DNA of 64,000 bases from Desulfobacterales bacterium (GTDB taxonomy: Bacteria > Desulfobacterota > Desulfobulbia > Desulfobulbales > JAGXFP01). The DNA is taken from positions 1-64,000 of the forward strand of contig JAGXFP010000074.1 in the NCBI GenBank assembly GCA_024637225.1. Reading direction: 5' to 3'. A model generated the notes under the pieces. It ran no database searches, was not told the origin of the DNA, and saw nothing but the letters and a program-made list of their open reading frames with translations. Position numbers and translations under genes: made by a program. Position 1 is the stretch's first letter. Each line of letters begins with the position of its first letter. This document shows, piece after piece, positions 28,341 to 57,093 of this stretch.

Positions 28341-29343
28341 CGAGTTCCTCCCGGATAAAATCAAGTTTCAGAAGCAGGGTCTTCACCTGTTCGATATCGA
28401 GCCGCTCGGTATTGTGGGAGGTATAGTCATCGAATCGGGAGATTTTCTCCTCGCCGTCGCTGAAAAATTTCGCGTAATTAAGATCCCGGTTGTCGGCCGG
28501 GATCCTGAAGTAATCTCCAAGGTCGTCGGCTCTCGCCATCTCCTCCCGGGAGATCAGGGATTCGAAAAGCTTCTCGCCGTGCCGGGTCCCGATAATCCTG
28601 ACCGGGTTATCCTTGCCGAACAACTCCTTAAGGGCCCGGGCCAGGACTTCGACCGTCGAAGCGGGGGCCTTTTGGACAAAGATATCTCCCTGGGCGCCGT
28701 GTTCGAAGGCATATAGGACCAGATCGACGGAATCCTCCAGGGACATCAGAAAACGGGTCATCTTGGGATCGGTAACCGTCAAGGCTTTGCCCTCCTTCAA
28801 CTGGGAAACGAAGAGAGGAATCACAGAGCCCCGGGAAGCCATGACATTGCCGTATCTGGTCGCACAGATCACCGTTTCGCCCTCCCCCTGCATCCGGGCC
28901 TTGGCGACCATCAGCTTTTCCATCATCGCCTTGGACACCCCCATGGCGTTAATGGGATAAACCGCCTTATCGGTACTCAGCACCACCACCCTTTTAACCC
29001 CCTGGGCGATCGCGGCGGCCATCATGTTCTCGGTGCCGATAATATTGGTCCGCACCGCCTCCATGGGATAAAATTCGCAGGACGGCACCTGCTTCAGGGC
29101 GGCGGCATGGAAGACGTAATCCACCCCCTTCATCGCCTGATAGATGCTGTCGTATTCGCGGACATCGCCGATATAGAACTTCAATTTATCGTTGTTCAGG
29201 GCGATCCGCATCTCTTCCTGTTTTTTCTCGTCACGGCTGAAGATCCGGATTTCGCGAACATCCGTCGACAGGAACCGCTTGAGGACGGTATTGCCGAATG
29301 AACCGGTGCCGCCGGTAATCATCAAGGTTTTATTGTTAAACAT
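28333..29343 (-). CDS. Soluble UDP-GlcNAc 4,6-dehydratase/5-epimerase (CapE/WbjB/FnlA type)
   Basis: 336 residues: MITGGTGSFGNTVLKRFL, the FlaA1/CapE-type block YVFHAAALKQVPSCEFYPME, and the active-site segment INAMGVSKAMMEK with Met instead of Tyr before the Lys. CapE-type enzymes remove water across C4-C6 and invert C5 of UDP-GlcNAc, opening the way to 2,6-dideoxy-2-acetamido-L-sugars. Together with the RmlD-like reductase and the 2-epimerase it forms the three-enzyme set. Confidence 0.93.
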   Translation of the reverse strand: MFNNKTLMITGGTGSFGNTVLKRFLSTDVREIRIFSRDEKKQEEMRIALNNDKLKFYIGDVREYDSIYQAMKGVDYVFHAAALKQVPSCEFYPMEAVRTNIIGTENMMAAAIAQGVKRVVVLSTDKAVYPINAMGVSKAMMEKLMVAKARMQGEGETVICATRYGNVMASRGSVIPLFVSQLKEGKALTVTDPKMTRFLMSLEDSVDLVLYAFEHGAQGDIFVQKAPASTVEVLARALKELFGKDNPVRIIGTRHGEKLFESLISREEMARADDLGDYFRIPADNRDLNYAKFFSDGEEKISRFDDYTSHNTERLDIEQVKTLLLKLDFIREELDA

Positions 29344-29523
29344 GATCTGAAACTCCTAACTGGTCTTATGTTCCCTTACCCTCTTGACAGGATTCGAGGT
29401 CACGCCAAGATAAAGCGTTCCGTTTCTTTTGCCTGCGAGAATATACACAGCTGGTTATTTATTAGCAAATTCCGCCGCTCCGGATTGCCAACAATTACAG
29501 CGGCTTGCATTCACCCTGTCGGA

Positions 29524-30393
29524 TCAGGCCTCTCTTTCCCGGACCTGCCCGGCCAGCTCCGCCAGCATCTCATCCCATGCGGGCGCCTGATAACCTGTTT
29601 TTTTATTGAATCGGGAGCCGTCGAGGCTGCGTTCGCAGAAGAAGCCGGAATCGGGAAGCAGCTTGAGATCTTCCCTGCCCAGATAAGCCGATAACCGTTT
29701 AAGGAGCTCATACTTGTTGATCGGAGCGCTGGCCACGTGCCAGAGCCCCGCGAGATCCGTATCCACGGTCAGCACCCTTTCGATAATCCGGGCCATCTCC
29801 AGGGTGGTAAAACCGCTGTAGATCGCCCGGGTAAAGCCCTTCGCTTCCCCTTTTTGGGCGAGAAACCATTCGACCAGGCTCTTCCTGCGCACAAGCTCCA
29901 GACCGATAATCGAGGTGCGCAGGGTCACCGCCTGGGGATCATGGACCTCGCCCAGGAGTTTGGAGCGGCCATAGAGATCCCTGGCATCCTCAAGATCGTC
30001 CTCGGCATACATCCCCTTCGCGCCGGAGAAAACGCAATCCGTACTGATCTGGATCAACCTGGCGCCGATCTCGCCGCATAACCGGCTTAAACGATGGGGC
30101 AGCAAGGAATTGACCTCCAGGCTGACGATGGCGTCATGGGCCTCGGAACGCTGTTTGACGATGCCCACCGCATTGACGATGGCCTCCGGTTTAAAGTCGG
30201 CGGCAACGGCGGCAATCCGGGCGAAGTCGCGGACATCGACCCCGTAACAGCTGTTGGCCTCATCAAACAGGCCGTATCGGTCGTAGTGGTTTGCCTCGCC
30301 GCGCAGGGTAACACAAACCTCATGGTTTGACTGCCACGACTTAAGCAGCTGGTGGCCCAGCATGCCGTCTCCGCCCAGAATCAGGATTCGCAC
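29524..30393 (-). CDS. RmlD-like 4-keto-sugar reductase (WbvR type)
   Basis: 289 residues: MRILILGGDGMLGHQLLKSW, STDCVFSG and the Tyr-Lys pair in LYGRSKLLGE. It belongs to the RmlD substrate-binding family. In pathways to UDP-L-QuiNAc (WbvB, WbvR, WbvD) an RmlD-like protein reduces the 4-keto group, whereas UDP-L-FucNAc synthesis uses the longer bifunctional WbjC. The short size here favours the L-QuiNAc or L-RhaNAc branch; this is inference. It overlaps the upstream glycosyltransferase gene by 13 bases and lies 180 bases before the dehydratase gene. Confidence 0.87.
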   Translation of the reverse strand: MRILILGGDGMLGHQLLKSWQSNHEVCVTLRGEANHYDRYGLFDEANSCYGVDVRDFARIAAVAADFKPEAIVNAVGIVKQRSEAHDAIVSLEVNSLLPHRLSRLCGEIGARLIQISTDCVFSGAKGMYAEDDLEDARDLYGRSKLLGEVHDPQAVTLRTSIIGLELVRRKSLVEWFLAQKGEAKGFTRAIYSGFTTLEMARIIERVLTVDTDLAGLWHVASAPINKYELLKRLSAYLGREDLKLLPDSGFFCERSLDGSRFNKKTGYQAPAWDEMLAELAGQVREREA

Positions 30394-31619
30394 CGCCCCT
30401 CCTCTACCACATGCCGCATCCAGCCCTCAAGGCGGCCGATCAGCATATCCCTCTCAAATTCGGCTCTATAATAATCGCGGCCACGGCTTCCCATCTTCCC
30501 GCGGTCCGATTCATTCATCCCATAGAGCTTCCGAACCGTGGCAGCCAGTCCCTCATCATCTCCGGCGCCGACGGACATCCCGGCATTCGCCTCGGAAATC
30601 ACCCGGGCGCCCTCGCCATTTAAGGCGGCGACAATCGGTTTTCCGCAGGCCATATAGGTTTGCACCTTACTGGGGATGGTCCGGTCGAAAACCGGATCGT
30701 CTTTCAAGGTTACCAGCAAGACATCGGAAGCAGCAAATAGAGCGGGCATCCGTTCGGCCGGGAAACTGCCCATAAAATGGACCCGCTCTCCGACCCCGAG
30801 ACGTTCGGCTTCCTGTCGCATCCACTCTTTCCTTCGTCCGTCCCCGACAATAAGCCAATGTATCGACGACTCATCACCCAATCGGGCCGCCGCCGAAATA
30901 ATCGTCCCCAGCGACTGGGCTTCTCCCAGGTTACCGGCAAACATGACCCGAAAGCCATCCGGTATTGCCAGACCGGCCGGCAAGGCTTCATTTTTCACCG
31001 GCCGATAAAACGATTCGGCCCAATTAGGGAAGTATTCGATCCGTTCGGCGGGCGCTCCGGCCGCAACCGCCGGCTGGATAAAAGCCCTGGACTGAACGAG
31101 GACCAGATCCATGTGCCGGTAAATCCACTTCACCAGACCGCCGACCGTCTTTAAAACCGCGGGCGACTTGACGGCTCCGGCCGCCTCAAGGCTTTCCGGC
31201 CAGAGATCCTGAACCCAGAAAAGCATCGGCGCCTTTTTCAGCCGGCGCATCAGGATGGCCGGAATGCCGACGGTAAAAGGCGACGGTTCATAGACGAAGA
31301 TCAAGTCGAACTCCTGTTTGCGCAACAACCAGGGTCCGAGCAAACAGCCGGAAAAGACAAAGGACAGATAATTAAGGGCCAGCTGCCATCCCCTGGCCCG
31401 GCGCCTTAGAAACAGGGGCAGCCGGAAAATCGGCACACCCTCCATATTGTCGCGCCGCTTTTTCCACCAGCCGTAACCTTCGAACAACCGGCCGGTCGGA
31501 TAATTGGGTACCCCGGTCAGTACCGTCACCTCATGCCCCCGAACTTTCAGGGTCAGGACAAGATCGTTGATCCGGAACTGTTCCGGCCAGAAATACTGGC
31601 TGACGACCAGGATCTTCAA
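30381..31619 (-). CDS. WbuB-like GT4 glycosyltransferase
   Basis: 412 residues. The start MKILVVSQYFWPEQFRINDL and GVPNYPTGRLFEGY are characteristic of WbuB-type transferases that add L-FucNAc or L-QuiNAc. C-terminal donor domain: VMFAGNLGEAQSLGTII, LIVGDGRRKEW, and the GT4 Glu region PSKVQTYMACGKPIVA. It should act on the cytoplasmic face on the lipid-linked second sugar. Its start overlaps the previous gene by four bases. The link to the neighbouring L-sugar genes is strong context. Confidence 0.9.
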   Translation of the reverse strand: MKILVVSQYFWPEQFRINDLVLTLKVRGHEVTVLTGVPNYPTGRLFEGYGWWKKRRDNMEGVPIFRLPLFLRRRARGWQLALNYLSFVFSGCLLGPWLLRKQEFDLIFVYEPSPFTVGIPAILMRRLKKAPMLFWVQDLWPESLEAAGAVKSPAVLKTVGGLVKWIYRHMDLVLVQSRAFIQPAVAAGAPAERIEYFPNWAESFYRPVKNEALPAGLAIPDGFRVMFAGNLGEAQSLGTIISAAARLGDESSIHWLIVGDGRRKEWMRQEAERLGVGERVHFMGSFPAERMPALFAASDVLLVTLKDDPVFDRTIPSKVQTYMACGKPIVAALNGEGARVISEANAGMSVGAGDDEGLAATVRKLYGMNESDRGKMGSRGRDYYRAEFERDMLIGRLEGWMRHVVEEGRCES

Positions 31620-32752
31620 GTTTTCATACCATAAACACAGCGTTTGAACAATTTCAGATGTCTTTCGGCAGCGATATCCCAGGTGTAGGAAGCGGCCGCT
31701 AGCCGCCGTCCCTTCCCGCCCATTTCATTACGTAAATCCGGATCGGTCATCAGCCCGCCTACCACCTTCGCCAACTCCGAGGAATCGGCCCCGGAAAGCC
31801 TGGCCGCCCCGGCCTCGGCAAGGGCATCGAAGCCGCAGCGATCGGTCAGCACCACCGGAACTCCGCAAACCGCGCCTTCCAGGGCGACGATCGACATCGC
31901 CTCCTGTCTGGAAGGCACCACCAGCAAGGAAGCGCCGTGATAGGCCGAAGACTTCAATTCACCTCCGACATAGCCGGCAAAATGGACGCGGTCGACCAAA
32001 CCCTCCTCCCTGGCCCGCTTTTTCAGTAATTCACCCATTCCGCCATCCGGGCCCGCAAAGACCAGGTGGAGTTCGGGAAAATCCGCCGATAATTTAATAA
32101 ACGCATCGAGGAGAAGATCCGGCCCCTTGATTTCGTTCAGGCGTCCCACGAAAAGCAGGTAATCCGCATCCCCTAGGCCGGCATGCTTACGAAACGGATC
32201 TTCATCTTCGCAGGCAAAGTCTTCGAGCCGGACCCCGTTCGGGATATGTTCAATCCGCTCCGCCGAAACGCCGTGCCGCCTTAACGTCTCAACCTCATCT
32301 TCCGTAATCGCTATGGCCGCGACCGCATTGCCGATCAGGGCGCGGCCGACCAGCCTGTTATAGCAAAGCTTAAACATCTTTGACCGGCCAAAAATCGACA
32401 ACGCTCCGGCTGGACTTACGACATGAGGCTTTTTCGCCAGGCGGGCGATCCAGTAGACGATGGCGTTAATAATGGTCCAGTGGTTCATCAGATGAATGAT
32501 ATCCGCCCGGCAAACCATGCGGTAGATAGCAAGCAATTTCGGAGCGGGCAAATACCAGCGCCGGTTCCAACAGGGCAACAGAACGACATCCGCGGATTCG
32601 GGCAAAGCGGATGAAGCGGCCACGGAGACGGAAAGGATCCGGGAAGCGGTCCCTTCCATCTTACGCATACTCTCGTGCAGTTGCCGAATTCGCTCGACGG
32701 TGCCGCCGCCGGAAACGGGATCGAGGCTCATATTGACATGGAGGATATTCAT
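31616..32752 (-). CDS. GT4-family glycosyltransferase
   Basis: 378 residues with the two-lobed GT-B pattern. N-terminal NILHVNMSLDPVSGGGTVER has the glycine loop; the C-terminal lobe shows LLFVGRLNEIKGPDLLLDAF, LVFAGPDGGMGELLKK and the donor site VPSRQEAMSIVALEGAVCG with the E-x7-E type arrangement. Retaining mechanism expected; donor sugar unknown. It overlaps both neighbours by four bases. Confidence 0.9.
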   Translation of the reverse strand: MNILHVNMSLDPVSGGGTVERIRQLHESMRKMEGTASRILSVSVAASSALPESADVVLLPCWNRRWYLPAPKLLAIYRMVCRADIIHLMNHWTIINAIVYWIARLAKKPHVVSPAGALSIFGRSKMFKLCYNRLVGRALIGNAVAAIAITEDEVETLRRHGVSAERIEHIPNGVRLEDFACEDEDPFRKHAGLGDADYLLFVGRLNEIKGPDLLLDAFIKLSADFPELHLVFAGPDGGMGELLKKRAREEGLVDRVHFAGYVGGELKSSAYHGASLLVVPSRQEAMSIVALEGAVCGVPVVLTDRCGFDALAEAGAARLSGADSSELAKVVGGLMTDPDLRNEMGGKGRRLAAASYTWDIAAERHLKLFKRCVYGMKT

Positions 32753-33660
32753 CGATTCCGGTCTTTTGCAATATCCTCGATTGCGCCGCGAAAACCGAGG
32801 GGCAGTTTAAATCCAAGCCGTTGTATCTTGGCTGACGAAAATCTTGTCCGGCCATGGAGGCTTGGTCCGCGAAACGCCCTCCTGATAAGATGGGGCACAA
32901 ATCGAGGCAGGGAGCAGGGCAGCTTCAGCTCACCTTGTCCGCCGTCCCGGAGAAAAAGGTAATAAGCGGCAATACCGGCGACCGTATTAAGCTCTTCCTC
33001 GTCGCAGGCAACAAAGAAATACTCTGGTTTTGGTAAAGGATGGTCCAAAAAAAACATGGCGGCGGAGGCAATATCCCCGGCATGAACAATGTGGGCGTGT
33101 TCCCTGCCCTTCAAAAGCACCTTCAGCCTGTCCATAAAATTGTTTCTGATCGGATACTCAATGAAGCCCGGCCGACTACTGCTGACTACGAATACCGGGC
33201 GAAGTACACAAGTTTTTGCGTCAAGTCCGGACGACAAAACCAGCTGTTCCGCGGCGTATTTGCTTTTTTCATAAGTATCGCGAGGATGGCAAGGAGTATC
33301 CTCATCGACCCATTCAGAGCTGTTCGCCCCCAGTACGCCTGCGGAACTGATATAGCAAAAGTAATCCAGGGATGATTTTTTTGCGATTTCCAGGATCTTC
33401 TCAGTTGCCTTGACATTGATCTCCCAAATCAGATCCTGTTGAGCAAATTCTGCGGCGCAATGAAAAAAAGCGGAAGAGCCGCTTATCAATTTGTCTAAAA
33501 CCTTCTCGTCGCGGATATCGCCCCTGATCACCTCAAGGGCCGGATCTTCCAGGGCAAGGCCGGACCTGGTCAAGGCCCGGACCTTCCAACCTTTTTCGAT
33601 CAGCATCGACAACAGATATCCGCCGATCGGGCTTGAAGCACCTGTGATTGAGGCAATCAT
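32749..33660 (-). CDS. NAD-dependent epimerase/dehydratase (SDR)
   Basis: 303 residues: SITGASSPIGGYLLSMLIEKG nucleotide loop region and catalytic pair in TYEKSKYAAE, with CYISSAGVLG as the Ser strand. It is an extended SDR acting on a nucleotide sugar or a lipid-linked sugar; the substrate cannot be told. Coupled to the next gene by ATGA. Confidence 0.82.
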   Translation of the reverse strand: MIASITGASSPIGGYLLSMLIEKGWKVRALTRSGLALEDPALEVIRGDIRDEKVLDKLISGSSAFFHCAAEFAQQDLIWEINVKATEKILEIAKKSSLDYFCYISSAGVLGANSSEWVDEDTPCHPRDTYEKSKYAAEQLVLSSGLDAKTCVLRPVFVVSSSRPGFIEYPIRNNFMDRLKVLLKGREHAHIVHAGDIASAAMFFLDHPLPKPEYFFVACDEEELNTVAGIAAYYLFLRDGGQGELKLPCSLPRFVPHLIRRAFRGPSLHGRTRFSSAKIQRLGFKLPLGFRGAIEDIAKDRNR

Positions 33661-33708
33661 CGATAATAACTTTGAAATTCGATATAAATTAATCTTTGAA
33701 TTGTTTTT

Positions 33709-34629
33709 TTACACATCATTTAAAAAATCTCTAATAATGAGCTTTGACATCTTCCATTTATTGATATTTTTAATTAAATTCCGTTTTGATTTTATTGTCA
33801 TTGTCCTTATAAATTTTTCCTTGTTACTTTTATGAGCATCTTCAGTTGATCGGCCATCCTTATGTAAAATCTTGATATTGGGTAAATACAGTCTTTTCAA
33901 CCCATTCAGCTCACAATTCCATGCCATTATATCTTCTTCACCGTACATGAAGAAACTTTCATCCAGCAATCCGACTTTATCGAGATATTGTTTTGTAAGA
34001 TATAAAAAACAGCCATGCAGCATATAGACGGATTGTTGCCCGGAACCAGAGTTGGAACTCGATTCCTCCAATTTAGTTGCTACCGACGATCTTCTACTAT
34101 GTTCTATTGCAGGAAATTTTCTGTATAATTGCGTTCTGATCCCGACCATAAACTCATACAGATATAAATTCAAAAAATATAAAAAATTTAGCCGATATAA
34201 CGGTGGATTTTGATGAACGCCCCCCGGAGTCAGTACATCCGTTCCCACAATACCCACATCACTCAAATCTAATTTATCGAATTCATCCAGTATATTATGA
34301 GAAATAATCTCCGTGTCATTGGTTGCGATGATAACTTGAGAAATGCCATTTTCGCGGAGGATTCGAATGCCGGTATTGTTGCCGGCCGAATAACCGTTGT
34401 TTTGATCGTTGAAAGCCAGGGTGATTTTCGGATGCCCCTCGAATTTGGACTTTAGCTTCTCGAACGAGTCGTTGGGTGAAGAATTGTCAACGATAACGAT
34501 ACAATAATCGTCTCTATCGGTTATCCGCAATATCGATTCAACACATGCGATAGTATCGGTGTAATTATTATAGTTCAGAACCACAAAACCATATCGAGGT
34601 TTAAGCCCGGGGGAAGCTGACATATGCAC
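33709..34629 (-). CDS. GT2-family glycosyltransferase
   Basis: 306 residues, GT-A fold: YGFVVLNYNNYTDTIACVES, IVIVDNSSPNDS and the metal-binding region IIATNDTEII; the later GCFLYLTKQYLDKVGLLDE and FFMYGEEDIMAWNCE blocks are typical of rhamnosyltransferase-like members. The gene is clearly more A+T-rich than its flanks, as is common for the variable part of O-antigen loci, which points to a separate origin. Confidence 0.87.
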   Translation of the reverse strand: MHMSASPGLKPRYGFVVLNYNNYTDTIACVESILRITDRDDYCIVIVDNSSPNDSFEKLKSKFEGHPKITLAFNDQNNGYSAGNNTGIRILRENGISQVIIATNDTEIISHNILDEFDKLDLSDVGIVGTDVLTPGGVHQNPPLYRLNFLYFLNLYLYEFMVGIRTQLYRKFPAIEHSRRSSVATKLEESSSNSGSGQQSVYMLHGCFLYLTKQYLDKVGLLDESFFMYGEEDIMAWNCELNGLKRLYLPNIKILHKDGRSTEDAHKSNKEKFIRTMTIKSKRNLIKNINKWKMSKLIIRDFLNDV

Positions 34630-34680
34630 TCCGCTGCCGACAGAATTCCGGCAAAGTATAAAAAAAATCCGATTTTTTGA

Positions 34681-35718
34681 TTATTTCTTTTCGGCCCTTA
34701 CTGTAACGAATTCCCGTGCTTCCAAGTCATACCTGGCCCGAAACGATGGAATAACGCACTTTAGGCGCTGCAGTAAAGTGGGCCTGCAATTCGTGGGATC
34801 AAGGCCCTGGCGGATCGCTTCGCATGCAGCATTAATATTGCAGTACTGTTCCCTGTAGGGCATGTCGACGAAATTTCGGAAACCCGCGGCTTTAAAACTT
34901 CTCAGCAGAGAAGAACGTGTAAACAACACCAGGTGCCGCGGCGGTTCAAGACCACGCCAGTTTTTTCCGAAACGTCTGCTGCCAAGCGAGTCGATATTCG
35001 GCGTCTCTACCCATAACCACCCTCCCGGTTTCAAAAGTTTATGGCATTCGCGTAACAAGCCTTGAGGATCGTGGATATGTTCAATCACATGGCTCAGGGT
35101 GATTCCATCAAAACTTCCGTATTGACCCTTAAGCGCGTCCGGCAGATCCAAATGCACGACCACCCCCCGTTTGCGTGCAACTTCCACGGCTTTACGGTCG
35201 GTCTCAACCCCCTGCACTTCCCAGCCGGCATTTTTAGCGCGAGCCAAAAAATCACCATTGCCGCAACCGATATCGAGCAACCTGTTTCCCGCTTTCGATA
35301 GAGGGAGATGGCGCATTAAAGCGTCCACCGTTGCCCGTTGACCCGGCAACATGTGAGCCAACCAATACCCCCAGGATAAAGCGGGGAACTCCTTGGTACC
35401 GTATTTCCGATTCCGATAGCCGTTGACCACGGCGCGACGCAATCGCCGGAATGGACTTTTCGCCTTGGAAGATTCTTGGTCATGGGTGTAATAATTGGCA
35501 TAGGCCCTGCCGATCGTCTCCGGAGTCGGGCGGGGATCCAAGTAGGCAGAACCGCATTCACTGCATTTATAAAGTTGCCATTGACCCGGAGCACAAAAAA
35601 AGATCAGATCGGTCAGACCGTCATAGAGCAGATATCTATGATTTGATCCACAAACCGGGCATGCGGAAACCGCTTCCCGATCCTCTACCGGCCATTCGCG
35701 TGAGTTAATTTCAGTCAT
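34681..35718 (-). CDS. Class I SAM methyltransferase with N-terminal zinc ribbon
   Basis: 345 residues. Residues about 18-60 carry two Cys pairs (CPVCGSNH and CSEC), a zinc-ribbon-like start. The SAM site is RLLDIGCGNGDFLARAKNAG near 148, with LSHVIEHIHDP and GGWLWVETPN as later motifs. Such proteins methylate sugars or cap polysaccharide chains. A relative with the same layout is present in the second cluster at 57094, also next to a flippase. Confidence 0.87.
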   Translation of the reverse strand: MTEINSREWPVEDREAVSACPVCGSNHRYLLYDGLTDLIFFCAPGQWQLYKCSECGSAYLDPRPTPETIGRAYANYYTHDQESSKAKSPFRRLRRAVVNGYRNRKYGTKEFPALSWGYWLAHMLPGQRATVDALMRHLPLSKAGNRLLDIGCGNGDFLARAKNAGWEVQGVETDRKAVEVARKRGVVVHLDLPDALKGQYGSFDGITLSHVIEHIHDPQGLLRECHKLLKPGGWLWVETPNIDSLGSRRFGKNWRGLEPPRHLVLFTRSSLLRSFKAAGFRNFVDMPYREQYCNINAACEAIRQGLDPTNCRPTLLQRLKCVIPSFRARYDLEAREFVTVRAEKK

Positions 35719-35754
35719 GGATAATTATATTTTACAGACATCGATTTCCTTAAT

Positions 35755-37242
35755 TTAAGGAGCAGTCACTTGGTTTCGCCGCCGTAAGTGTTTGGTAAGC
35801 GGCCAGAGCAATATCCCTGAAACTACCATTATTACGACCAATAAAATCATTCGCACCAAAAGGGAATCCAACAGCCAGGCGAATAAAAAACCGGCCGATA
35901 TCATCAAAAGCGCGATATGGGTTTGCACTACTACCCGACCAAGGTCGGCTAATTTCAAACGGGCGAATTCATTTAAAACCACGGTGTCCACCACAACCCG
36001 GATAGTCCAGGTTGCCGCGGTCCCGGCAATACCAAATTTGTGGGTTAAAAACCATAATAAAAGCAAATAGGGAACAAGCTCCGCCAAATGGATTTTGGCA
36101 ACAATATCCGGCCTTCCGGCACTTTGCAGAACCGTGAAGGCAGGTAAGGCGAGAACATTTATCATAGTACCCATAGCCAGCCAATGCACCACCGGCGTCG
36201 CGGCAATGCGAAAATCATTTCCCAGCCAGATATCCAAGGCCTCGGGGGCAAATAAAAATATTGCGCCGATGATGGGCAACATCAACAATAGCAGCAATCT
36301 CGCGCTGTGACTGTAAATTGTTGCCAAAACCTCGCGGTCGCCGCTAAAGGCGGTAGACATGGCTGGGAATATCACCCCCATAATGGATTGCGGCAGCAAC
36401 TGAAGACGCGACAGGACCTCATATGGAGTCACATAATAGGTTACAGCCGTCATGCTTAGCACGGCACCTAGAAAAAAACGGTCCAGATAAGTCATCAGGG
36501 GACCGATAATATTGGAAACCGTCAACCATCCGCCAAACCGAAACAACGGGAGCGCATGGATCATTTGCGGCCGAATGGGAGTTCTCAATTCCGGACGAAC
36601 CGATGAGGAAACGCCAAAATAAGCAAACAATGCGACCATCCGGCTGACAAGCAAGGCGGTTGTTGCCCAAACAAGACTTGGAGTAAACTGGAGCGTTAAA
36701 AGCGGTCCGGCGAAAGTCAAAACACCCAAGGGAATACGAATGGAGGTAACAGTTGCAAAGCGTTGATGGGCTTCCAATAAACCCACCAGGGCTGTTGTTG
36801 CAACCACCACCGGTAAGCCTAAAGACAAAATACGGAATGCGGCAATCGCCTCGTTCTGAAATTGGGCTTTTACATTCAGCACATAGTGAACCAAAGGTCC
36901 TGCCAGCACAAAAACCACGACGGCGCCCAATATCCCGAATGCAACCAGAAGGGACAAAGCAGTCCAGATAAGCGGGCCAAGATCGTCGAGACGGCCGCTG
37001 CCAAGGCGCTCGGCTACCAGTTTAGTCAGTGCTCGACCAAGTCCTAGATCAAAGAGACTGAAATAGCCGACGCCCATCCAGATAATAGCAAGAAGACCAA
37101 ATCGTTCCTTGCCCATACCTTCAATAAGCAAGGGGATGGCGATAAGAGCAACCAACATGGGTGCGGCCAGACCGATAAAATTCCACAAGGCGCTGCGCGC
37201 CAGAATCCGCCCCGAGGTAAGACTTTTCGCATCATTAATCAT
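35755..37242 (-). CDS. wzx: Wzx-type polysaccharide flippase
   Basis: 495 residues with 12-14 hydrophobic segments and the MATE/MOP-superfamily start ARSALWNFIGLAAPMLVALI, IPLLIEGMGKERFGLLAI and LGLGRALTKLVAERLG. It moves the undecaprenyl-linked repeat unit to the periplasmic face. It is the first intact gene of the cluster. A matching Wzy polymerase is not seen intact; the decayed DNA upstream may have held one. Confidence 0.9.
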   Translation of the reverse strand: MINDAKSLTSGRILARSALWNFIGLAAPMLVALIAIPLLIEGMGKERFGLLAIIWMGVGYFSLFDLGLGRALTKLVAERLGSGRLDDLGPLIWTALSLLVAFGILGAVVVFVLAGPLVHYVLNVKAQFQNEAIAAFRILSLGLPVVVATTALVGLLEAHQRFATVTSIRIPLGVLTFAGPLLTLQFTPSLVWATTALLVSRMVALFAYFGVSSSVRPELRTPIRPQMIHALPLFRFGGWLTVSNIIGPLMTYLDRFFLGAVLSMTAVTYYVTPYEVLSRLQLLPQSIMGVIFPAMSTAFSGDREVLATIYSHSARLLLLLMLPIIGAIFLFAPEALDIWLGNDFRIAATPVVHWLAMGTMINVLALPAFTVLQSAGRPDIVAKIHLAELVPYLLLLWFLTHKFGIAGTAATWTIRVVVDTVVLNEFARLKLADLGRVVVQTHIALLMISAGFLFAWLLDSLLVRMILLVVIMVVSGILLWPLTKHLRRRNQVTAP

Positions 37243-38320: not shown

Positions 38321-38322
38321 TT
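38258..38322 (-). repeat. TTCAAGG/GGACAG array behind the first beta-barrel gene
   Basis: On the minus strand, from the TAA stop: TAAGGGTATAAGGACTG, AAGGTAAAGACAGC, TTCAAGG, AAGCTTCAAGC and TTTAAG units. The family's order of elements is kept although individual units are degenerate. Confidence 0.7.
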
Positions 38323-38944
38323 AGAAAGAATACCTCATGCCGGCATAGATGTTATGTGATGCATATTCCACTTCCCCGTTTGCAAATTCGGCATTGGTGG
38401 TGGCGAAATAGCGATACTTGCCTTCAAGGGTGATTTCCTCGTTGACGGCGTAGCCAAGTCCGGCGCCGAACTGATAGGCAAAAACAGTGGCGGAATCGTT
38501 ACCCAGGTAAGCGGTATTGTCATCGACATTGATCAATGCTGCGCCCAGACCGGCGCTCAAATACGGGGTCCAAAAGGACCTGTTGGTAAAATCCCAGTAC
38601 CCGTTCACCAGAAAAGCAAGACTGTCGATGTTGTCGTGCAAAGATACATTCCCAACGGTTGTACTGACCTTATCCAATGCATTGTTCTGGTAGGCGATTT
38701 CAGCCTCTATCCTGGGGAAACCATAAAAATCATATCCCAATGCCGCCCCAACCGCAAAACCGGTATCCGCTTCGACTGTAAAATCCGTGGTCGAGGCTTT
38801 CGAGTTAGAGACCTCGGCATCGCTGAAGAGGCCAAGGCCAAAAAAGCTGGCACTTAGATAGGTCTTCTCTTCGGCGCCATAGGCACTGGTTGTGAGAGAA
38901 AGCAGCATGATGCATCCGGAAATAATAAATATATTTCTCTTCAT
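38321..38944 (-). CDS. Outer-membrane beta-barrel protein, copy 1
   Basis: 207 residues from the ATG at 38944, where a signal peptide starts (MKRNIFIISGCIMLLSLTTS, then AYGAEE); an upstream in-frame start at 39004 would bury it. Alternating strands follow and the protein ends in Phe (NIYAGMRYSF), the usual C-terminal signal for barrel assembly. About eight strands, like small OmpW/Opa-type barrels. It is a close paralogue of the next gene. Function unknown; adhesion or small-molecule passage are common for the fold. Confidence 0.85.
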   Translation of the reverse strand: MKRNIFIISGCIMLLSLTTSAYGAEEKTYLSASFFGLGLFSDAEVSNSKASTTDFTVEADTGFAVGAALGYDFYGFPRIEAEIAYQNNALDKVSTTVGNVSLHDNIDSLAFLVNGYWDFTNRSFWTPYLSAGLGAALINVDDNTAYLGNDSATVFAYQFGAGLGYAVNEEITLEGKYRYFATTNAEFANGEVEYASHNIYAGMRYSF

Positions 38945-39189
38945 AATGTCTCCTGTTTTTTTGATCGCCTTGCCAGATATTCTGATGGGATTTTCCTTGA
39001 GCACAGTGCCAAGCTTCCCCTGTAAAAATCAGAGAGTATAGCATGTTACGTCTGGTCAGTCCAGAATAGTGTAGCGGTCTTAGATCAACTCAACTTTCCG
39101 GGTTGTGATATTAGCTTGAAAGCTGCAAGCTGAAAGGTACCAAGTGGCAAACGGGCAAGCCGCAAGTCAAAAGTTAAAATCGCCCCTCG

Positions 39190-39249
39190 TACAGCTATCC
39201 TTCCTTGCCTTAACCTTGAAGCTTGAGGCTTGAAGCTGCTCTTAACCTA
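39190..39249 (-). repeat. TTCAAGG/GGACAG array behind the second beta-barrel gene
   Basis: On the minus strand it begins at the TAG stop: TAGGTTAAGAGCAGC, TTCAAGCC, TCAAGC, TTCAAGG, TTAAGG. Upstream of both barrel genes there is a different shared block (CAAGCTGAAAG ... GTCAAAAGTTAAA at about 39127-39178 and 40016-40050), so the duplication included flanking DNA. Confidence 0.7.
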
Positions 39250-39861
39250 AAAAGAATACCTGACGCCGGCATAGACGTTATGGGTTCGATATTCGGTTTC
39301 TCCGCTATCGAATTCAGGATTGGTGGTGGCAAAATAGCGATACCTGCAGTCAACGGTAATCACTTCGTTGACGGCGTAAGCGATACCGGTGCTGATCTGA
39401 AAGGCAAAAACCGTGGCTGAATCGTCGCCCAGGTAAGCGGTATCGTCATCGACATTGATCATGGCCAGGCCGAGACCGCCACCCAGAAACGGGGTCCACC
39501 GGGAATCGTTTGCAAAATCCCGATAGCCGTTTATCAGGACAGCAAAACTGTCAATATCGTCGGACAAAGCTGCATCGCCACCGGCTGTAGTTGCCTGGTC
39601 CAAGGTATTGTTGTGGTAGACGAATTCACTCTCTATCCTGGTGTTATCAAACTCATAACCCACTGCCGCGCCGAGGCCGTAGCCGGTGTTCGCCTCGATA
39701 TCATAATTAGCGGCGGAGGCGTCCGAGCCGGTGACTTCGGCATCACTGAAGAAGCCAACACCCAGATTAGCGCTTAAATAGAGGGTGTCGGTGGCACTGT
39801 AGGCGCTGGTGGATAGCGAAAGTAGCATGACGCACACGGCAATAGATATCTTTTTCTTCAC
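39247..39861 (-). CDS. Outer-membrane beta-barrel protein, copy 2
   Basis: 204 residues with a signal peptide (MKKKISIAVCVMLLSLSTSA, then YSATD) and C-terminal Phe (HNVYAGVRYSF). It matches copy 1 along its whole length, including VNGYRDFAN, INVDDDTAYLGDDSATVFA and YRYFATTNPEF. Tandem duplication with divergence at surface-loop positions. Role unknown. Confidence 0.85.
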   Translation of the reverse strand: MKKKISIAVCVMLLSLSTSAYSATDTLYLSANLGVGFFSDAEVTGSDASAANYDIEANTGYGLGAAVGYEFDNTRIESEFVYHNNTLDQATTAGGDAALSDDIDSFAVLINGYRDFANDSRWTPFLGGGLGLAMINVDDDTAYLGDDSATVFAFQISTGIAYAVNEVITVDCRYRYFATTNPEFDSGETEYRTHNVYAGVRYSF

Positions 39862-40869
39862 AAAAGTTCTCCCGCTTCTTTCGGCGGCTGGCCGAATATT
39901 TTCAAGGAAATTATCCCTAAACAGAATGGCTTGCCTGCCTTTTCGATTACCGCATCATCACACTTTATTTTTTACAATTTCGCTATAAAATTTTTCTGAT
40001 ACCGCGTGAAGGGGCAAGCTGAAAGCCGCCAGTCAAAAGTCAAAAGTTAAAGTCGTAAACAAAACGGCTCCTCCTATTTCAGGTTGTCCGGCCAGATCGG
40101 ACCGTCTTTCAATTTAACGATATCACCATGAATGCGAACCCTTTTCGCGAGCACGATAATCGGTCTTAGGAGGGATGGGAAAGTCCGAAACCATTCCCGA
40201 AATTTACTTCATCGCTATTCGGAATATAGCTGGAGCCGCTGGCGGGTAGGGGGAACCCTACTTTTAGCTGCCTTGAATGGGGGGTAACCCCTACCGAATA
40301 TCCCGCTTCATGATTTTGTTTTATTTTATGGTTGCGAGGCCGTTTTTTATTGGCTATAAACAATAGTCATTACTGTTTTTCTTACGCAGCCCTGAAGCAT
40401 GCTTTAATGTTCGCTCTCATCCGCTGTTTTCGGGTTTCCTCGCGTTTACTTGCAGTTCAGAATTTTCAATCTCAAGTTTGTTCACACTTTCATATATTCC
40501 ACCGGGTCAAAGTTCCCGTTAGAGGGATCCTGCGCCCGAAAAGAAATTCTAGGCACTTTAACCGGCAGGGAACAGGCAACCGCGTGCCATCCCTTACTCT
40601 TCGCCCCGCCTCGGATGGCCTGGTCTTGCAGGGGTTTTCCCGGCCAAGTTTTATCTTAATGGCGTCGCCATCTCCAGATTTTTGCGAGTTTGTTATATTT
40701 TGCCGAATTGGCAAAAACTGACTTTGTACATCATTGTGAGGAGCGAGGCGACAAGACAATCCAGTAAATAATTCGATGTTTTCGGATTTGTTCGCCAGCC
40801 TCGCAATGAGCTATAGCCGTCACGGATTCAGGAATAATCAAGAGGAGAACCCTTTACCGGGGGGTAATA
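39862..40869. other. Long intergenic region with possible structured RNA and repeats
   Basis: 1.0 kb between divergent genes. Around 40134-40310 there are several nested inverted repeats: GCGAA/TTCGC, GGGAA/TTCCC, GGTAGGGG/CCCCTACC. A short open minus-strand stretch ending at a TAG near 40078 looks protein-like at its end (KLKDGPIWPDNLK) but has no start. A TCATTGTGAGGAG element is at 40730-40810. Open frames on the plus strand at 40332-40721 do not look like protein. The wecA-like gene's ribosome binding site (GGGGGG-rich, 40859-40865) closes the region. Confidence 0.45.
40730..40810. repeat. TCATTGCGAGGAG element, degenerate copy
   Basis: TCATTGTGAGGAGCGAGGCG, ACAATCCAG and a terminal GCCTCGCAATGAG reproduce the inverted layout of 25954-26040 with several changes. 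Confidence 0.65.
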
Positions 40870-42402
40870 ATGGAAAATCTGTCTGTTCAAGCGGTTTTAA
40901 CTTTTCTTCTGGCTCTGCTCCTGACCGGTCTGGCCCTGCCCAAGCTGGTCAGGATTGCCGGGCGCGTCGGCCTGGTTGACCTCCCCTGCCGGAGAAAAAT
41001 CCATACAACCCCCAAACCCCTGATCGGCGGAGTGGCGATTTTGACCGGGGTGCTGTTCAGCAGCTTGGTGTTCATCCCCTTTACCAATCTCAGGGGCTAT
41101 TTCCTCGGCCTTGCCATTTTACTGATAGTCGGCTTCCTCGATGATTTCCGGGAACTCAATCACCGCTTGAAGTTCGTTGCCCAGTTCCTGGCCGTAGGCA
41201 CGATTATTTTCTGGAGTGGAGCCAGGCTCGAGACTTTCGGGGAGATCCTGCCCGGCCTCCAGGTCCATCTCGGCTACCTGGCCATGCCGATAACATTTCT
41301 GGCCGGGATCGGGGTAATCAACGCGTTAAACATGGCTGACGGCCTTGATGGCCTGGCCGGCGGTCTGGCCCTCGCCGCTTTTGCTTCATTTTCGTATCTC
41401 GCCCACCTGAACGGCCAGCCCAACCTGATGCTGCTCAGTCTTGCCTTCTGCGGCGCCCTGATCGTTTTCCTGAGGTACAACTGGCATCCTGCCTCGCTCT
41501 TCATGGGCGACGCCGGCAGCCTCACCCTCGGCTTCTCCCTGGTCTTCCTCGGCATTGTTCTTTCGCAATCGGGCCGGGGTCTGGTGCCTCCCGTCACCGT
41601 TTTGCTGATTATGGCGGTACCGGTGACTGATACCCTGACGGTGATGACCAAGAGGATGACCAGACAGAAAAGTCCCTTCCATGCAGACAAGACCCATTTC
41701 CACCACCTGCTCCTTCGCTTCGGCTTCACCAAAAGGCATTCGGCCTATACGATTATCACCATCTCCCTGTTCCTTTCGATCATCGGGTTGGCCGGGGCGG
41801 TTCTGCGAATCCCCCATTACTACATGATGGTGGTCTTCCTTGCTTACGCGGCGCTCTACACCCTCTTCGTTTTCCGGGCCACGGCGATACTCAGGGTCAA
41901 ACTCAGGATAACCAACGGCAAGAGTCATTTTTCCGGTGGAGTCGCCCTGGGCCTTGCCAAGCTGATGGAAGGCGCCGAAAGGCTGGTGAAAATACGGTGG
42001 GAAGGCTATCATTTCAGTGTCGCCACCCCGATGCCGTGTTTGTTGATCAGGGGAAACGAGCGTTATGCCGGAATCATCCGGAGCATCAGCACCAGGGGCT
42101 TCGCCGCGACCACCACCGAACGGTTGCCCGTCGGGGAAGTGGTGAAAGCAGGATTGTGCCTGCTTGACGAAAAAAAGCACGGCAAGGCAGGAAAGGTTAA
42201 TCTGCGCATCCCGGCCATGGTCTCCGGAATCAGGGAAAAAGTTGACACCATTGAATACGACTTTCGCTTCGTGAAGAAAAAAAGAAGCGATTCCAGGGAG
42301 CTCGCCAATTTTCTGTGCCTGGACCATAACCTGACCGGCAACTTTCGCCGTCCCTTCCCGGTCCGCGCCACTACAAGCGAGAAACATATAATTACCGGGT
42401 AA
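40870..42402 (+). CDS. WecA-like lipid-carrier sugar-1-phosphate transferase with C-terminal PilZ-like domain
   Basis: 510 residues. About 1-340 is a polytopic GT of the WecA/TagO/MraY family with all hallmarks: LPCRRKIHTTPKPLIGG, LIVGFLDDFRELN, VINALNMADGLDGLAGG, FMGDAGSLTLGFSL and FHADKTHFHHLLLRFG. It transfers HexNAc-1-phosphate to undecaprenyl phosphate. Residues about 375-480 form a soluble tail resembling PilZ: RWEGYHFSVATPMPCLL, then GIIRSISTRGFAATT and LPVGEVVKAGLCLL; the RxxxR motif is not clear, so c-di-GMP binding is uncertain. Ordinary WecA ends near 350. It stands alone and precedes a 40-base palindrome. Confidence 0.88.
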   Translation: MENLSVQAVLTFLLALLLTGLALPKLVRIAGRVGLVDLPCRRKIHTTPKPLIGGVAILTGVLFSSLVFIPFTNLRGYFLGLAILLIVGFLDDFRELNHRLKFVAQFLAVGTIIFWSGARLETFGEILPGLQVHLGYLAMPITFLAGIGVINALNMADGLDGLAGGLALAAFASFSYLAHLNGQPNLMLLSLAFCGALIVFLRYNWHPASLFMGDAGSLTLGFSLVFLGIVLSQSGRGLVPPVTVLLIMAVPVTDTLTVMTKRMTRQKSPFHADKTHFHHLLLRFGFTKRHSAYTIITISLFLSIIGLAGAVLRIPHYYMMVVFLAYAALYTLFVFRATAILRVKLRITNGKSHFSGGVALGLAKLMEGAERLVKIRWEGYHFSVATPMPCLLIRGNERYAGIIRSISTRGFAATTTERLPVGEVVKAGLCLLDEKKHGKAGKVNLRIPAMVSGIREKVDTIEYDFRFVKKKRSDSRELANFLCLDHNLTGNFRRPFPVRATTSEKHIITG

Positions 42403-42406
42403 AAAA

Positions 42407-42446
42407 CCTTAATCCGTGAGCGTTCTCGAACGCTCACGGATTAAGG
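42407..42446 (+). terminator. 40-base near-perfect palindrome behind the WecA-like gene
   Basis: Arms CCTTAATCCGTGAGCGTTC (42407-42425) and its exact reverse complement (42428-42446) with a two-base loop. It begins five bases after the stop. No T-run follows, so it may be a repeat or an mRNA 3'-end stabiliser rather than a classical terminator. Half-copies occur at about 22972-22988 (behind the WbpM-like gene) and near 50688-50703. Confidence 0.6.
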
Positions 42447-42481
42447 ATAATCCAAGAGAAAAGCTTTAAAACCGGTCATTC

Positions 42482-51300: not shown

Positions 51301-51588
51301 CTAATCTAAATCTAGATCCACGTACATCATGCCCATCCGAAAACGGTTGGTTCCTATCGGGGCAATCCATTTGACTTCCATTCGCCGAAATCCCCCCTCT
51401 CTTTCAACCGTATAGACATGACCTGCCCGCGGTGGGGTCGCGCCGCTGTATATGCAACCGAGACCGGATTCGCTCTCATCGACGGGAACTACGAAATAAA
51501 GATCGTCGTCGCTGCCGTTTAGCTTGATAGGATTGATCTGATTAACCTTGTACCGTTCATGCCTTCTACGCGACTTGCCTTTATACAT
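51301..51588 (-). CDS. Small PilZ-domain protein
   Basis: 95 residues. RRRHERYKVNQI gives the RxxxR motif and VDESESGLGCIYSG the D-x-S-x-x-G motif, the two c-di-GMP contacts of PilZ; the ending NRFRMGMMYVDLD is the usual last strand. A stand-alone c-di-GMP receptor is likely. It lies at the downstream edge of the second polysaccharide cluster and may tune it. Confidence 0.78.
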   Translation of the reverse strand: MYKGKSRRRHERYKVNQINPIKLNGSDDDLYFVVPVDESESGLGCIYSGATPPRAGHVYTVEREGGFRRMEVKWIAPIGTNRFRMGMMYVDLDLD

Positions 51589-51920: not shown

Positions 51921-52910
51921 CTATTCAGTAAAGAATTCTGTTTCGCAACTGTGGTCTTCGAGGAATTCGTGACGAAGGGTTCGCTCCAAACCTTCGGACA
52001 AGGTAACCGGAGGCACAAAGCCCGTCTTGCTTATGGAAGTGGCAAATTGTGTGGTGGCAGTGAATTTTTTTACCCGGATGCTGCTCACCGGCAATGATTT
52101 ACCAGTAAGCAAGGCAATAGCGTCACAAAGGTAGCCTCCCGTAAGACCTAGCAGGTAAGGGAGACGAGGACCAACCCCGGAGCCACGACCGAGCTTTTGT
52201 CGGACGCTAGCAACCATGGTGTTCATGTCTAAATCCGGCTTGTCAATGTAATTATATATATGCAACCCAGGGGCAAATTTCAGAGAGAACTCAAGAAAAG
52301 CTGCGATATTTTCTACATAAGCCATAGATTTACGGTTTTTACCGCTACCGATCATCACAAATCTTCCGCTGGAGATCTGGCGCAGTAAGTTATAGACATT
52401 CCCTCGGTTTTGTTCCCCGAAAGCCACCGTGGGCCGGACAATCACCAAGGTACGATTTTCTGGATCTTCCGATTGCCACCTCTTATAGACTTCTTCCGCC
52501 TGCCATTTGGTTCGTCCATATTCGTTGAAGTAATTAATTTCGCCGGACTCATCTGTGTCGGGGTGTGCAAAGCCGTACACCGCAACAGTGCTGGTAAAGA
52601 TGATATTGTTGATTTTTTTTTGGCGAGCTACCTCACAAAGGTTTCTGGCGCCCTGAACATTGACTTCGCCGTACAGGCTTTTGGGCCGGACGTCATCACG
52701 ATGTTCGGCGGCAAGATTGATTATAACCTCTCCATCTACCGCTTTCCTCAAGCCCTCTATGTCTCTTACATCCGCAAGTACCGTCTTGTCTGGAAATGTC
52801 TTGCTTATGATCTTGTCAATTACTGCAAATTCAGCATTGGCAATTTTGAGCCGCCTGCCGAGTCGCGTGCCAATAAACCCAGACCCACCTACAATAATTG
52901 TTTTTTGCAT
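51921..52910 (-). CDS. NAD-dependent epimerase/dehydratase (SDR)
   Basis: 329 residues: IIVGGSGFIGTRLGRRL, Ser strand IIFTSTVAVYG and the Tyr-Lys pair in YGRTKWQAEE. Extended SDR acting on a nucleotide- or lipid-linked sugar; the family resembles UDP-glucose 4-epimerases with a C-terminal membrane-near region. AAGGTG lies upstream of the ATG. It is the last gene of the second cluster, 138 bases beyond the glycosyltransferase. Confidence 0.85.
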   Translation of the reverse strand: MQKTIIVGGSGFIGTRLGRRLKIANAEFAVIDKIISKTFPDKTVLADVRDIEGLRKAVDGEVIINLAAEHRDDVRPKSLYGEVNVQGARNLCEVARQKKINNIIFTSTVAVYGFAHPDTDESGEINYFNEYGRTKWQAEEVYKRWQSEDPENRTLVIVRPTVAFGEQNRGNVYNLLRQISSGRFVMIGSGKNRKSMAYVENIAAFLEFSLKFAPGLHIYNYIDKPDLDMNTMVASVRQKLGRGSGVGPRLPYLLGLTGGYLCDAIALLTGKSLPVSSIRVKKFTATTQFATSISKTGFVPPVTLSEGLERTLRHEFLEDHSCETEFFTE

Positions 52911-53048
52911 GTTAGCACCTTACGCCGCCCGTGGCGGCGATTGTCAGCAAGAAATCTTTTTTGACCAAAAACACGATATTTCAGGTAGTTGGCAAGAACC
53001 TACTTGGTAGACACCTTATGTTGTCCATACAGGCCACCTCGAGGCTCG

Positions 53049-53909
53049 TCAGGAACTCACAATTCTCTGTCGTAAAAACCATTCATAAAACAAACGGCGT
53101 AAAAAAGGAGGGGCGATAAAAACGCTGGAACGCGCAATGCCGTGCAAAACACCGCGCATTCGCGTCTTCAACCCTAACCGAACCATCATGGTCTGCAATT
53201 CATACTCCCCCTTGGTATATCGCCACCCGCCCCGTCGTTTATACATATCTCGACCTGCAGTAGCATGAACCAGAACTTCAGGCAGATTGGCACAACGCGC
53301 CCCTGCCATGATCATATTGATCCACAATGCGTAATCTTCCCTCAAATAAATATCAGGATAGCCGCCGCAGAGTGTAACCAAGGACCGCCGATAGGCTACC
53401 GTCATGTGGTTGAATGGATTTCGCCGAACAATGAACTCGCGTACCTGCTCGTGACTCGCCGGCATCACACGACGTGCCACAGGGGTGCCGTTACGTTCAC
53501 ATTCCAGTATCGCACTGCCAATCAAATCCAGATCAGGATGTTCTTGAAGCAACTCGGAAATCCGCCTGAACCGGTTGGACAGATTCAAATCATCCGAGTC
53601 GGCCCTTACCACCCACTCGGTGCGAACCTGCGCAAGTCCGGCGTTCAATGCCTTCGCAAGTCCTTGGTTTCTCTCAAGGCGAACAACTTCCAGACCATAC
53701 CGTTGTTCGGCAGCAATAATTTTCTCTTCCAGATGCCACGGAACCATCCCATCAACGACCAAGACCATATAGTCTGCTTTGAGATCGTTCTCGTAAACAC
53801 TCTCGACAGCCTTGGCAAACAACTCCGGTTCATCCTTGCCATACACGGCCATTAAAACGGTAAACCCGCCCGGAAAGCCGGGACCAAAATATTTCACATC
53901 AAACCTCAT
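53049..53909 (-). CDS. GT2-family glycosyltransferase
   Basis: 286 residues from the ATG at 53909, chosen because it forms an ATGA overlap with the preceding gene; an in-frame start at 53966 lies inside that gene. GT-A fold: FTVLMAVYGKDEPELFAKAV, YMVLVVDG, and the catalytic WVVRADSDDLNLSNRF with the DxD-like Asp pair, then YLREDYALWINMI carrying the general-base region. Typical of transferases making O-antigen or capsule repeats. Confidence 0.9.
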   Translation of the reverse strand: MRFDVKYFGPGFPGGFTVLMAVYGKDEPELFAKAVESVYENDLKADYMVLVVDGMVPWHLEEKIIAAEQRYGLEVVRLERNQGLAKALNAGLAQVRTEWVVRADSDDLNLSNRFRRISELLQEHPDLDLIGSAILECERNGTPVARRVMPASHEQVREFIVRRNPFNHMTVAYRRSLVTLCGGYPDIYLREDYALWINMIMAGARCANLPEVLVHATAGRDMYKRRGGWRYTKGEYELQTMMVRLGLKTRMRGVLHGIARSSVFIAPPFLRRLFYEWFLRQRIVSS

Positions 53910-54820
53910 ATCCGAATCCATGTATGGGGAATCAGGTCTGTGGTATCCGTACCAGTGGCAAACCATGTGCGAGGGGCAATAACGATTTTACCAGGATCAG
54001 GATTCAGCCAGGCCCCCCACCAACTGAAGGAACTGTTCGCGATGACATGGTGGCGGCACAACGACATCAGCCGCATATCGTTATAGCTGTCATCGCCCTG
54101 GTTATGATCTACTACTACGATTTCCGGATATCTCGGCTTCAATACCGCAGCCACCCATTCGGGCTCATCTGAAAACGCAAATAGGCGCAACTCGGAGAGA
54201 CGCTGCTGCAGCAAGTCTACAGCGTTGAAATAGTAATCTGGTAAGCATGTTCCGTGCATCACGTGAGTTTTTGCATCGCTTACATAGTCTCCACGCCGCA
54301 CATGAATGCTGACTGAATTGCAACCAAGTATTTCGTTCTGCAGTTCAGCATTCCGGCCGCTTGGCGCGTGTCTGAAGGTGAAGTCTTTCCTCAGTGTTGC
54401 AGCATGGTTCACAAAGTAGCGCTCGCTTTGCCAATAGCCTTGCAGATATCCCCCATTCCGGACCCTTGCTGCAAGACCATCCCAGTAGCGATAATGCGGC
54501 TCAAGGACAAAGTTCCTTCCCCTGAAGATGGCTAGAGCCTTGACGACCAGCAACTTGCGCACAAGCGGTTTGGCATGCAACGCACCAATCATCTCTCGCA
54601 GCTCTGATCGCGAAGCCATATCAATATCCAGCCGGAACACCCGCTCAAGCTCCAGGCCATAGTGAAAAATATTATATACTCCGAACATATCGAGCATAAC
54701 CTTCAGCGGAAGGTGCAGTTCCAGGGCCAACGCTCTTGCGCAAGCATACTGAAACATCTGATTACCAAGTCCTCCGACAATATTGGTGATAATCATTTTT
54801 GGACTAAATTTAGCTTTCAT
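53906..54820 (-). CDS. GT11-family alpha-1,2-fucosyltransferase-like protein
   Basis: 304 residues. GGLGNQMFQYACARALA near the start, GYWQSERYF, the donor motif SIHVRRGDYVS and the late SSFSWWGAWLN are hallmarks of GT11, whose characterised members add L-fucose (or another sugar) in alpha-1,2 linkage. No GDP-fucose genes are in the window. A start eight residues later (MIITNIVGG) is possible. It overlaps the upstream gene by 11 bases. Confidence 0.9.
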   Translation of the reverse strand: MKAKFSPKMIITNIVGGLGNQMFQYACARALALELHLPLKVMLDMFGVYNIFHYGLELERVFRLDIDMASRSELREMIGALHAKPLVRKLLVVKALAIFRGRNFVLEPHYRYWDGLAARVRNGGYLQGYWQSERYFVNHAATLRKDFTFRHAPSGRNAELQNEILGCNSVSIHVRRGDYVSDAKTHVMHGTCLPDYYFNAVDLLQQRLSELRLFAFSDEPEWVAAVLKPRYPEIVVVDHNQGDDSYNDMRLMSLCRHHVIANSSFSWWGAWLNPDPGKIVIAPRTWFATGTDTTDLIPHTWIRI

Positions 54821-55739
54821 GAGTGGAACGCACTGTAATTGCTTGCCGAGCTATCGATCTGGGCACTGGCCCAAAACAGAAAGCCGCCTTAATGCGACCT
54901 ATTCCCCGGAGGCTGTTCCAGCATACCGACTCACAGATGAGTATCATAGAGCGCAATCTTAGTCTGCACTGTAAAGGCTCAAGCCAAAGGGTGGTGGTTT
55001 GATGAACATCTCTCAAGTAGGTTCGCTCCTCGCGTGCAATTTGCGTTATAGAAGACCTGAGACCCGCAGTGATTGAACCGGAGCGGCCCACAACCGAACC
55101 AATCTTGATTTCGGGGCAAAGCCGTAGATTTTTTACAACCTTAAACAAGCGTACATAAAGGTCCACGTCAATAAACCACCGCAGTCGAGTATCGAATCGA
55201 GGAAATAATGTACGCCGGACCACCATTGTGGATGTTGGGCCAATGACATTACGCCGAAACAGGTACTGAGGAAACCGATTTACTACAAGAGCCCGCAGCC
55301 AAGTTGGTAAATGTCGTCGGTTATAGCCATTACTGGGCAAAACAAGGATGCAGTCTAGTATCAAAACATCTATGAATCGATCATAGCGTAAGGCCTCTAT
55401 CACATTGCCGATAAAATCATCCACTAATGGGAACTCATCGTGATGCAACAACAAGCAGTACTCACCTTGTGCAGCATCAAGAAGCGCATTCCAATTAGCC
55501 GCCGCACCAAACGGTGGATGATTGTGCTGGTAGGTAACCTGAGAACCTGTAGCTTCACACCAATTCCTGACAACCTCATCTACAGCATTGTCAACTGAAT
55601 CATCAAAAATAATTATTTCGCAGTCACCTATAGGCAGCTGATGCAGACGTGTGAGGATACGATGCACCCCATCAGCGTAATTGTACGCCGGCACTAAGAT
55701 ACTAAGGAATGGAGTGTTTATGTAAGAGCTTTCGTTCAT
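54810..55739 (-). CDS. GT2-family glycosyltransferase
   Basis: 309 residues: LSILVPAYNYADGVHRILTR, IIIFDDSVDN and EYCLLLHHDEFPLVDD, with His-Asp in place of the DxD usually found there. It is probably inverting and cytosolic. Eight bases separate it from the membrane polymerase gene upstream. Confidence 0.85.
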   Translation of the reverse strand: MNESSYINTPFLSILVPAYNYADGVHRILTRLHQLPIGDCEIIIFDDSVDNAVDEVVRNWCEATGSQVTYQHNHPPFGAAANWNALLDAAQGEYCLLLHHDEFPLVDDFIGNVIEALRYDRFIDVLILDCILVLPSNGYNRRHLPTWLRALVVNRFPQYLFRRNVIGPTSTMVVRRTLFPRFDTRLRWFIDVDLYVRLFKVVKNLRLCPEIKIGSVVGRSGSITAGLRSSITQIAREERTYLRDVHQTTTLWLEPLQCRLRLRSMILICESVCWNSLRGIGRIKAAFCFGPVPRSIARQAITVRSTHES

Positions 55740-55747
55740 AGCAGTTT

Positions 55748-56971: not shown

Positions 56972-57093
56972 TCAAATACTCTTCGTGGTTATCTTTCATT
57001 CAAAGTCATGTTGTTCACAAAATAAAAATAGGTTTAAAGCTTATAATCGATAAAATTCCTTAAAATGATTGACTATCCAAAATATCCAAACAC

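Follow-up and report, generated by a model that had tools for sequence, protein, structure and literature searches.

A WecA/MraY-type phosphoglycosyl transferase with a PilZ domain fused to its C terminus in a Desulfobulbales bacterium and its relatives

Results

The window, by which we mean the whole 64,000-nucleotide stretch of DNA that was analysed, contains on its forward strand a gene (positions 40870 to 42402) encoding a 510-residue protein in which, according to the open reading frame, Pfam and structural models, a WecA/MraY-type phosphoglycosyl transferase is followed by a C-terminal PilZ domain. The gene starts with ATG and forms a single unbroken frame of 510 codons without a stop. 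The GC content at third codon positions in the tail region is 0.67, which is coding-like, while flanking non-coding DNA gives 0.43–0.47. A frameshift or read-through artefact as the source of the fusion is ruled out by the codon-position GC, by the profile match of the tail and by the conservation of the architecture in other species, and it is confirmed that the two domains are joined in one chain.

The transferase part (residues 1–348; 40870 to 41913, forward strand) has 11 predicted transmembrane helices and was defined from its Pfam match, invariant alignment columns and the model. The Glycos_transf_4 family (PF00953) matches residues 76–231 with an E value of 2.4e-39 (135.3 bits versus a Pfam cut-off of 27), and residues 1–345 group with WecA and MraY in NCBIfam and PDB sequence searches. 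The catalytic motifs DD, NxxNxxDGxDGL, GDAGS and HxHH are all present, and a 12-row alignment shows no variation at D91-D92, N151, N154, D157, D160, D214, H276, H278 and H279. In the full-length AlphaFold2 model (mean pLDDT 79), 11 long helices extend as far as residue 348, in good agreement with a first-pass annotation of the sequence that placed the end of the transferase at about residue 345. The fold is MraY-like, with the 38 best PDB matches being MraY or DPAGT1. By family, motifs and fold, the protein is therefore a polytopic phosphoglycosyl transferase of the WecA/MraY type, with the activity predicted from these properties. However, it scores only 221.4 bits against the enterobacterial WecA model (TIGR02380, NCBIfam), for which the cut-off is 326.05 bits, and since this cut-off is missed its sugar substrate is putative. 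The genome encodes one other polytopic transferase, a 359-residue MraY-like protein, and no further one was found; it also encodes two monotopic transferases (Bac_transf), one of which lies within the window (25240–25836).

WecA-type enzymes start lipid-linked polysaccharide synthesis by loading undecaprenyl phosphate with the HexNAc-1-phosphate of a UDP-sugar, and both WecA and MraY have a periplasmic N terminus. The number of helices in the window protein is odd and its two ends therefore lie on opposite sides of the membrane. If the N terminus is periplasmic, the tail would be cytosolic, in agreement with an Arg/Lys-rich stretch that follows the last helix in the sequence.

The last membrane helix is connected to the tail domain by a helical linker (residues 357–377; 41938 to 42000, forward strand) that is modelled with low confidence. 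Six strands (residues 382–467) and a C-terminal helix (residues 472–489) follow, forming the PilZ domain (42013 to 42336, forward strand) that was identified by Pfam, the models and Foldseek. In the full-length protein the PilZ family (PF07238) matches residues 384–481 with 21.5 bits, just under the curated cut-off of 22.5. When the 170-residue tail was scanned alone it exceeded this cut-off (24.7 bits, E=3e-5), as it did when the 3.3-Mb genome was searched with the PilZ family, where the tail scored 24.9 bits and was one of nine PilZ loci. An AlphaFold2 model of the tail, built together with the tails of seven relatives, places strands at model residues 47–57, 63–71, 75–80, 89–98, 106–121 and 126–132 and a helix at 137–154, with a pLDDT of mostly 83–93 in the barrel core. 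The 48 best PDB matches of this model (Foldseek) are all PilZ structures and include YcgR, CeSA/BcsA and Alg44. The strands are fairly confident, but the arrangement of the PilZ domain relative to the membrane is not, with a linker pLDDT of about 45–55. The PilZ-like pattern that the first-pass annotation had reported in the tail is thus borne out, and the profile search and structure prediction that it proposed as checks gave a PilZ match and a six-stranded barrel rather than an outcome that speaks against them. It is confirmed that the C-terminal tail, from about residue 382 to 489, is a genuine PilZ domain.

The same annotation counted this domain as the third of the PilZ type in 64 kb. One of the other two, a stand-alone open reading frame at 11324–11701 (29.3 bits), is clear and by eye retains both c-di-GMP motifs. 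The other, a short PilZ-like open reading frame at 51301–51588 (reverse strand), scores 19.1 bits, below the Pfam cut-off, and is absent from the genome-wide PilZ search, although it carries RRHER and DESESG, which by eye correspond to both motifs.

At least 28 relatives share the transferase–PilZ design. A match spanning the transferase into the tail was found in 26 of 258 genomes of the order to which the window belongs, the named carriers being Desulfocapsaceae, Desulfocapsa and Desulfobulbaceae MAGs, and the same architecture is present in four Nitrospirota MAGs, one of them labelled Thermodesulfovibrio. The assignment of the order to Desulfobulbales follows the names of these carriers. 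The PilZ scores of the relatives' tails that were tested range from 22.2 to 60.9 bits. In a sample of 395 genomes from across the phylum, a fused protein above the threshold was present only in that of the window, and the architecture thus seems confined to the order and a small number of Nitrospirota. Long tblastn matches in Shewanella proved to be neighbouring WecA paralogues of about 355 residues and not fusions. No description of the fusion was found in the open-access literature searched, which is weak evidence of absence. The initial observation of a two-domain protein was right but understated, as this is a real and conserved two-domain protein family.

Other additions to WecA-like proteins were also noted. 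Two proteins of about 540 residues (L011 and L012, from genomes G023 and G010) end in a soluble region of another kind, about 200 residues long, with no Pfam family match in the one tail scanned, which is possibly another sensor on such an enzyme. Many others of 550–625 residues, including L009, L033, L042 and L044, have a hydrophobic C-terminal extension rich in membrane helices, with no convincing family match in the one scanned. In L016 (G014) a WecA-like domain appears from the sequence to be in frame with a PglF/CapD-like nucleotide-sugar dehydratase (at least 958 residues), a possible fusion.

PilZ domains are the usual bacterial receptors for c-di-GMP, and both of their ligand motifs are close to intact in the 28 relatives that were aligned. 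The first Arg of RxxxR is kept in 23 of these and replaced by Lys in 3, and the second is kept in all 28. In [DN]xSxxG, the first position is Asn or Asp in 27 of 28, the Ser is present in 26 of 28 and the Gly (Gly410 in the window protein) in 28 of 28, while the Gly of an HGF/YGF motif is kept in 27 of 27. The window protein departs from these family-constant positions by R381H (or Y), N405S and G464D. Its first motif (R376-W-E-G-Y380-H381; 41995 to 42012, forward strand) reads RWEGYH where RxxxR is expected, with the second Arg missing. The second (S405-I-S-T-R-G410; 42082 to 42099, forward strand) reads SISTRG where [DN]xSxxG is expected, with Ser407 and Gly410 kept, and EYDF replaces HGF/YGF. 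At least 11 GGDEF loci are present in the window's genome, and c-di-GMP signalling is therefore present in this organism.

In about a dozen Desulfocapsaceae the fusion gene is the first in a same-strand exopolysaccharide run, in which it is followed by genes for a small secreted protein, a BBP2_2 beta-barrel, a Poly_export/SLBB protein (Wza), a Wzz/GNVR/AAA protein (Wzc) and a Wzy_C protein, and in several of these neighbourhoods GT2 enzymes are encoded upstream. The fusion gene in the window stands alone, without the operon of its relatives. A perfect 18-bp hairpin directly 3' of it (42407 to 42446) separates it from its downstream neighbour at 42860, and the genes that follow encode a MinD/CooC-like ATPase and, as named by reading the sequence, FtsE/FtsX-like and EnvC-like proteins and a CtpA-like protease.

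Polysaccharide genes lie on both sides of the fusion gene within the window, at 22985–37242 and 51921–63924 (reverse strand), several of the gene names in both clusters coming from reading the sequence. The former has its own monotopic starter transferase (25240–25836) and a CapE/F/G-like amino-sugar set; the latter includes Wza-, Wzc-, Wzx- and Wzy-like genes. Two tandem, similar outer-membrane beta-barrel genes (38321–39004 and 39247–39861, reverse strand), the second of which is assigned to OMP_b-brl by Pfam, lie a short distance upstream of the fusion gene. A near-identical 24-base word (CACGGATT.AGGA..ATC.AAGAG) is found on both sides of the fusion gene (40821–40844 and 42435–42458), the downstream copy overlapping one arm of the hairpin. 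Related words number 12 in the genome versus 0 for a reversed control.

Discussion

The protein described here resembles BcsA in having a polysaccharide-making membrane enzyme and a C-terminal PilZ domain, predicted here to be cytosolic, in one chain, and BcsA structures are among the structural matches of the tail. In BcsA, binding of c-di-GMP by the PilZ domain opens a gating loop (PMC8461298). However, as a processive GT2 synthase BcsA both makes and exports its chain, whereas the fusion enzyme would only prime the lipid carrier; Pfam found only Glycos_transf_4 and PilZ in the window protein and no GT2 catalytic domain. With WecA, MraY and DPAGT1 the protein shares a common fold (TM-scores of 0.56–0.81 on target length), catalytic residues and length up to about residue 345, but the solved members of this group have no PilZ tail. 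Alg44, the PilZ subunit of alginate synthesis, is also close in structure to the PilZ domain described here (4rt0, TMt 0.78) and is a further case of PilZ-mediated c-di-GMP control of a polysaccharide, although its PilZ domain is not on the enzyme but on another subunit, together with a membrane-fusion domain. The nearest known case of control at the priming step is the action of EpsW on EpsZ in Myxococcus xanthus, a post-translational activation of an exopolysaccharide-starting phosphoglycosyl transferase (PMC12802240). There, in contrast to the fusion, a separate response regulator binds the transferase and no PilZ domain is part of the described mechanism.

The near-intact motifs of the 28 relatives, together with the position of the gene at the head of an exopolysaccharide operon in about a dozen Desulfocapsaceae, support direct c-di-GMP control of the lipid-priming step as a reading that would fit the family. 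We propose that RxxxR and [DN]xSxxG most likely enable the PilZ domain of the family to bind c-di-GMP and that the bound domain would, via the helical linker, alter access to or the ordering of the cytosolic active-site loops. Exopolysaccharide would then be started only at high c-di-GMP, much as cellulose synthase is gated by the C-terminal PilZ domain of BcsA. The window copy has retained the enzyme and the PilZ fold but lost key ligand residues, and a degenerate or adaptor PilZ domain would fit this protein better than direct control by c-di-GMP. Its tail probably either offers a surface on which a partner docks or is drifting, and it would not sense c-di-GMP in the standard way. Overall, we consider it probable that the family joins a priming transferase to a c-di-GMP-responsive PilZ domain and that the window copy has a docking or drifting tail.

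Canonical c-di-GMP binding by the window tail appears unlikely because family-constant positions are changed and the operon is absent. Loss of ligand residues is no proof of blindness to c-di-GMP, since some PilZ proteins with partial motifs still work through partners and binding is possible without the motifs. Binding could in principle be retained through R376, which precedes the aligned first Arg by one residue, together with other residues including the conserved Ser407 and Gly410, so that the enzyme would be controlled as in its relatives in an organism that does make c-di-GMP. We regard this as quite improbable, given that the Arg found in every aligned relative is His (or Tyr if the alignment is shifted), that the Asn or Asp of the second motif is Ser and that G464 is Asp. 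Furthermore, XCC6012, a PilZ protein that keeps only SxxG, showed no measurable c-di-GMP binding by ITC (PMC3131395). Since the ligand residues are gone and a PilZ protein with SxxG alone gave this result, a docking or vestigial role for the window tail is more likely than c-di-GMP binding. That the tail is purely a structural leftover, with no regulatory role and the gene acting as a plain WecA, is in keeping with the lost motifs, with the missing operon and with a homologue from the same genus (L006) that has no tail at all. However, the barrel core is still predicted with high pLDDT and the frame remains open with coding-like third-position GC throughout the tail, and we view such a leftover as rather unlikely.

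Trees were built on the transferase part alone, and in the first of these fused and unfused proteins form one clade (support 98) with six unfused members. The PilZ domain is thus dispensable in that clade because these six close homologues, L006 included, lack the tail, and no PilZ remnants were found in the DNA beside them. A more careful tree requires four changes of tail state (3–4 in bootstraps), and because the changes cannot be polarised, a single gain with subsequent losses would fit, and so would two or three separate gains. The window protein forms a long, deep branch. A separate, later event that joined another PilZ gene to a WecA-like one, independently of the fusion in Desulfocapsaceae, would account for the number of changes, for the unfused homologues close to the window protein and for the marginal rejection of a single clade of all fused proteins (p-AU 0.0475). 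However, loss of the tail is as easy as its gain, the residues at the junction and in the linker are similar to their counterparts in the Nitrospirota fusions (AILRVKLRI / LLILRLRF), and a profile built from the other tails detects the window tail (24.6 bits) but neither of the stand-alone PilZ proteins in the window. An independent fusion therefore seems somewhat unlikely.

For polysaccharides of the synthase type, such as cellulose and alginate, direct control by c-di-GMP through PilZ domains is well established. Post-translational control of Wzx/Wzy pathways has been called incompletely understood (PMC12802240). A PilZ domain in the priming enzyme would place c-di-GMP control at the point where scarce undecaprenyl phosphate is committed to one polymer. 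We tentatively suggest that in the Desulfobulbales and Nitrospirota family c-di-GMP may directly switch undecaprenyl-phosphate priming for Wzx/Wzy pathways, and that the window member may have exchanged the ligand for a protein partner. The relatives with intact motifs make c-di-GMP control directly testable with one purified protein, and the motif-poor copy in the window provides a natural contrast to them. The fusion family would extend the set of PilZ-controlled polysaccharide enzymes, with a member in the window that, judging from its motifs, is probably not a standard c-di-GMP receptor.
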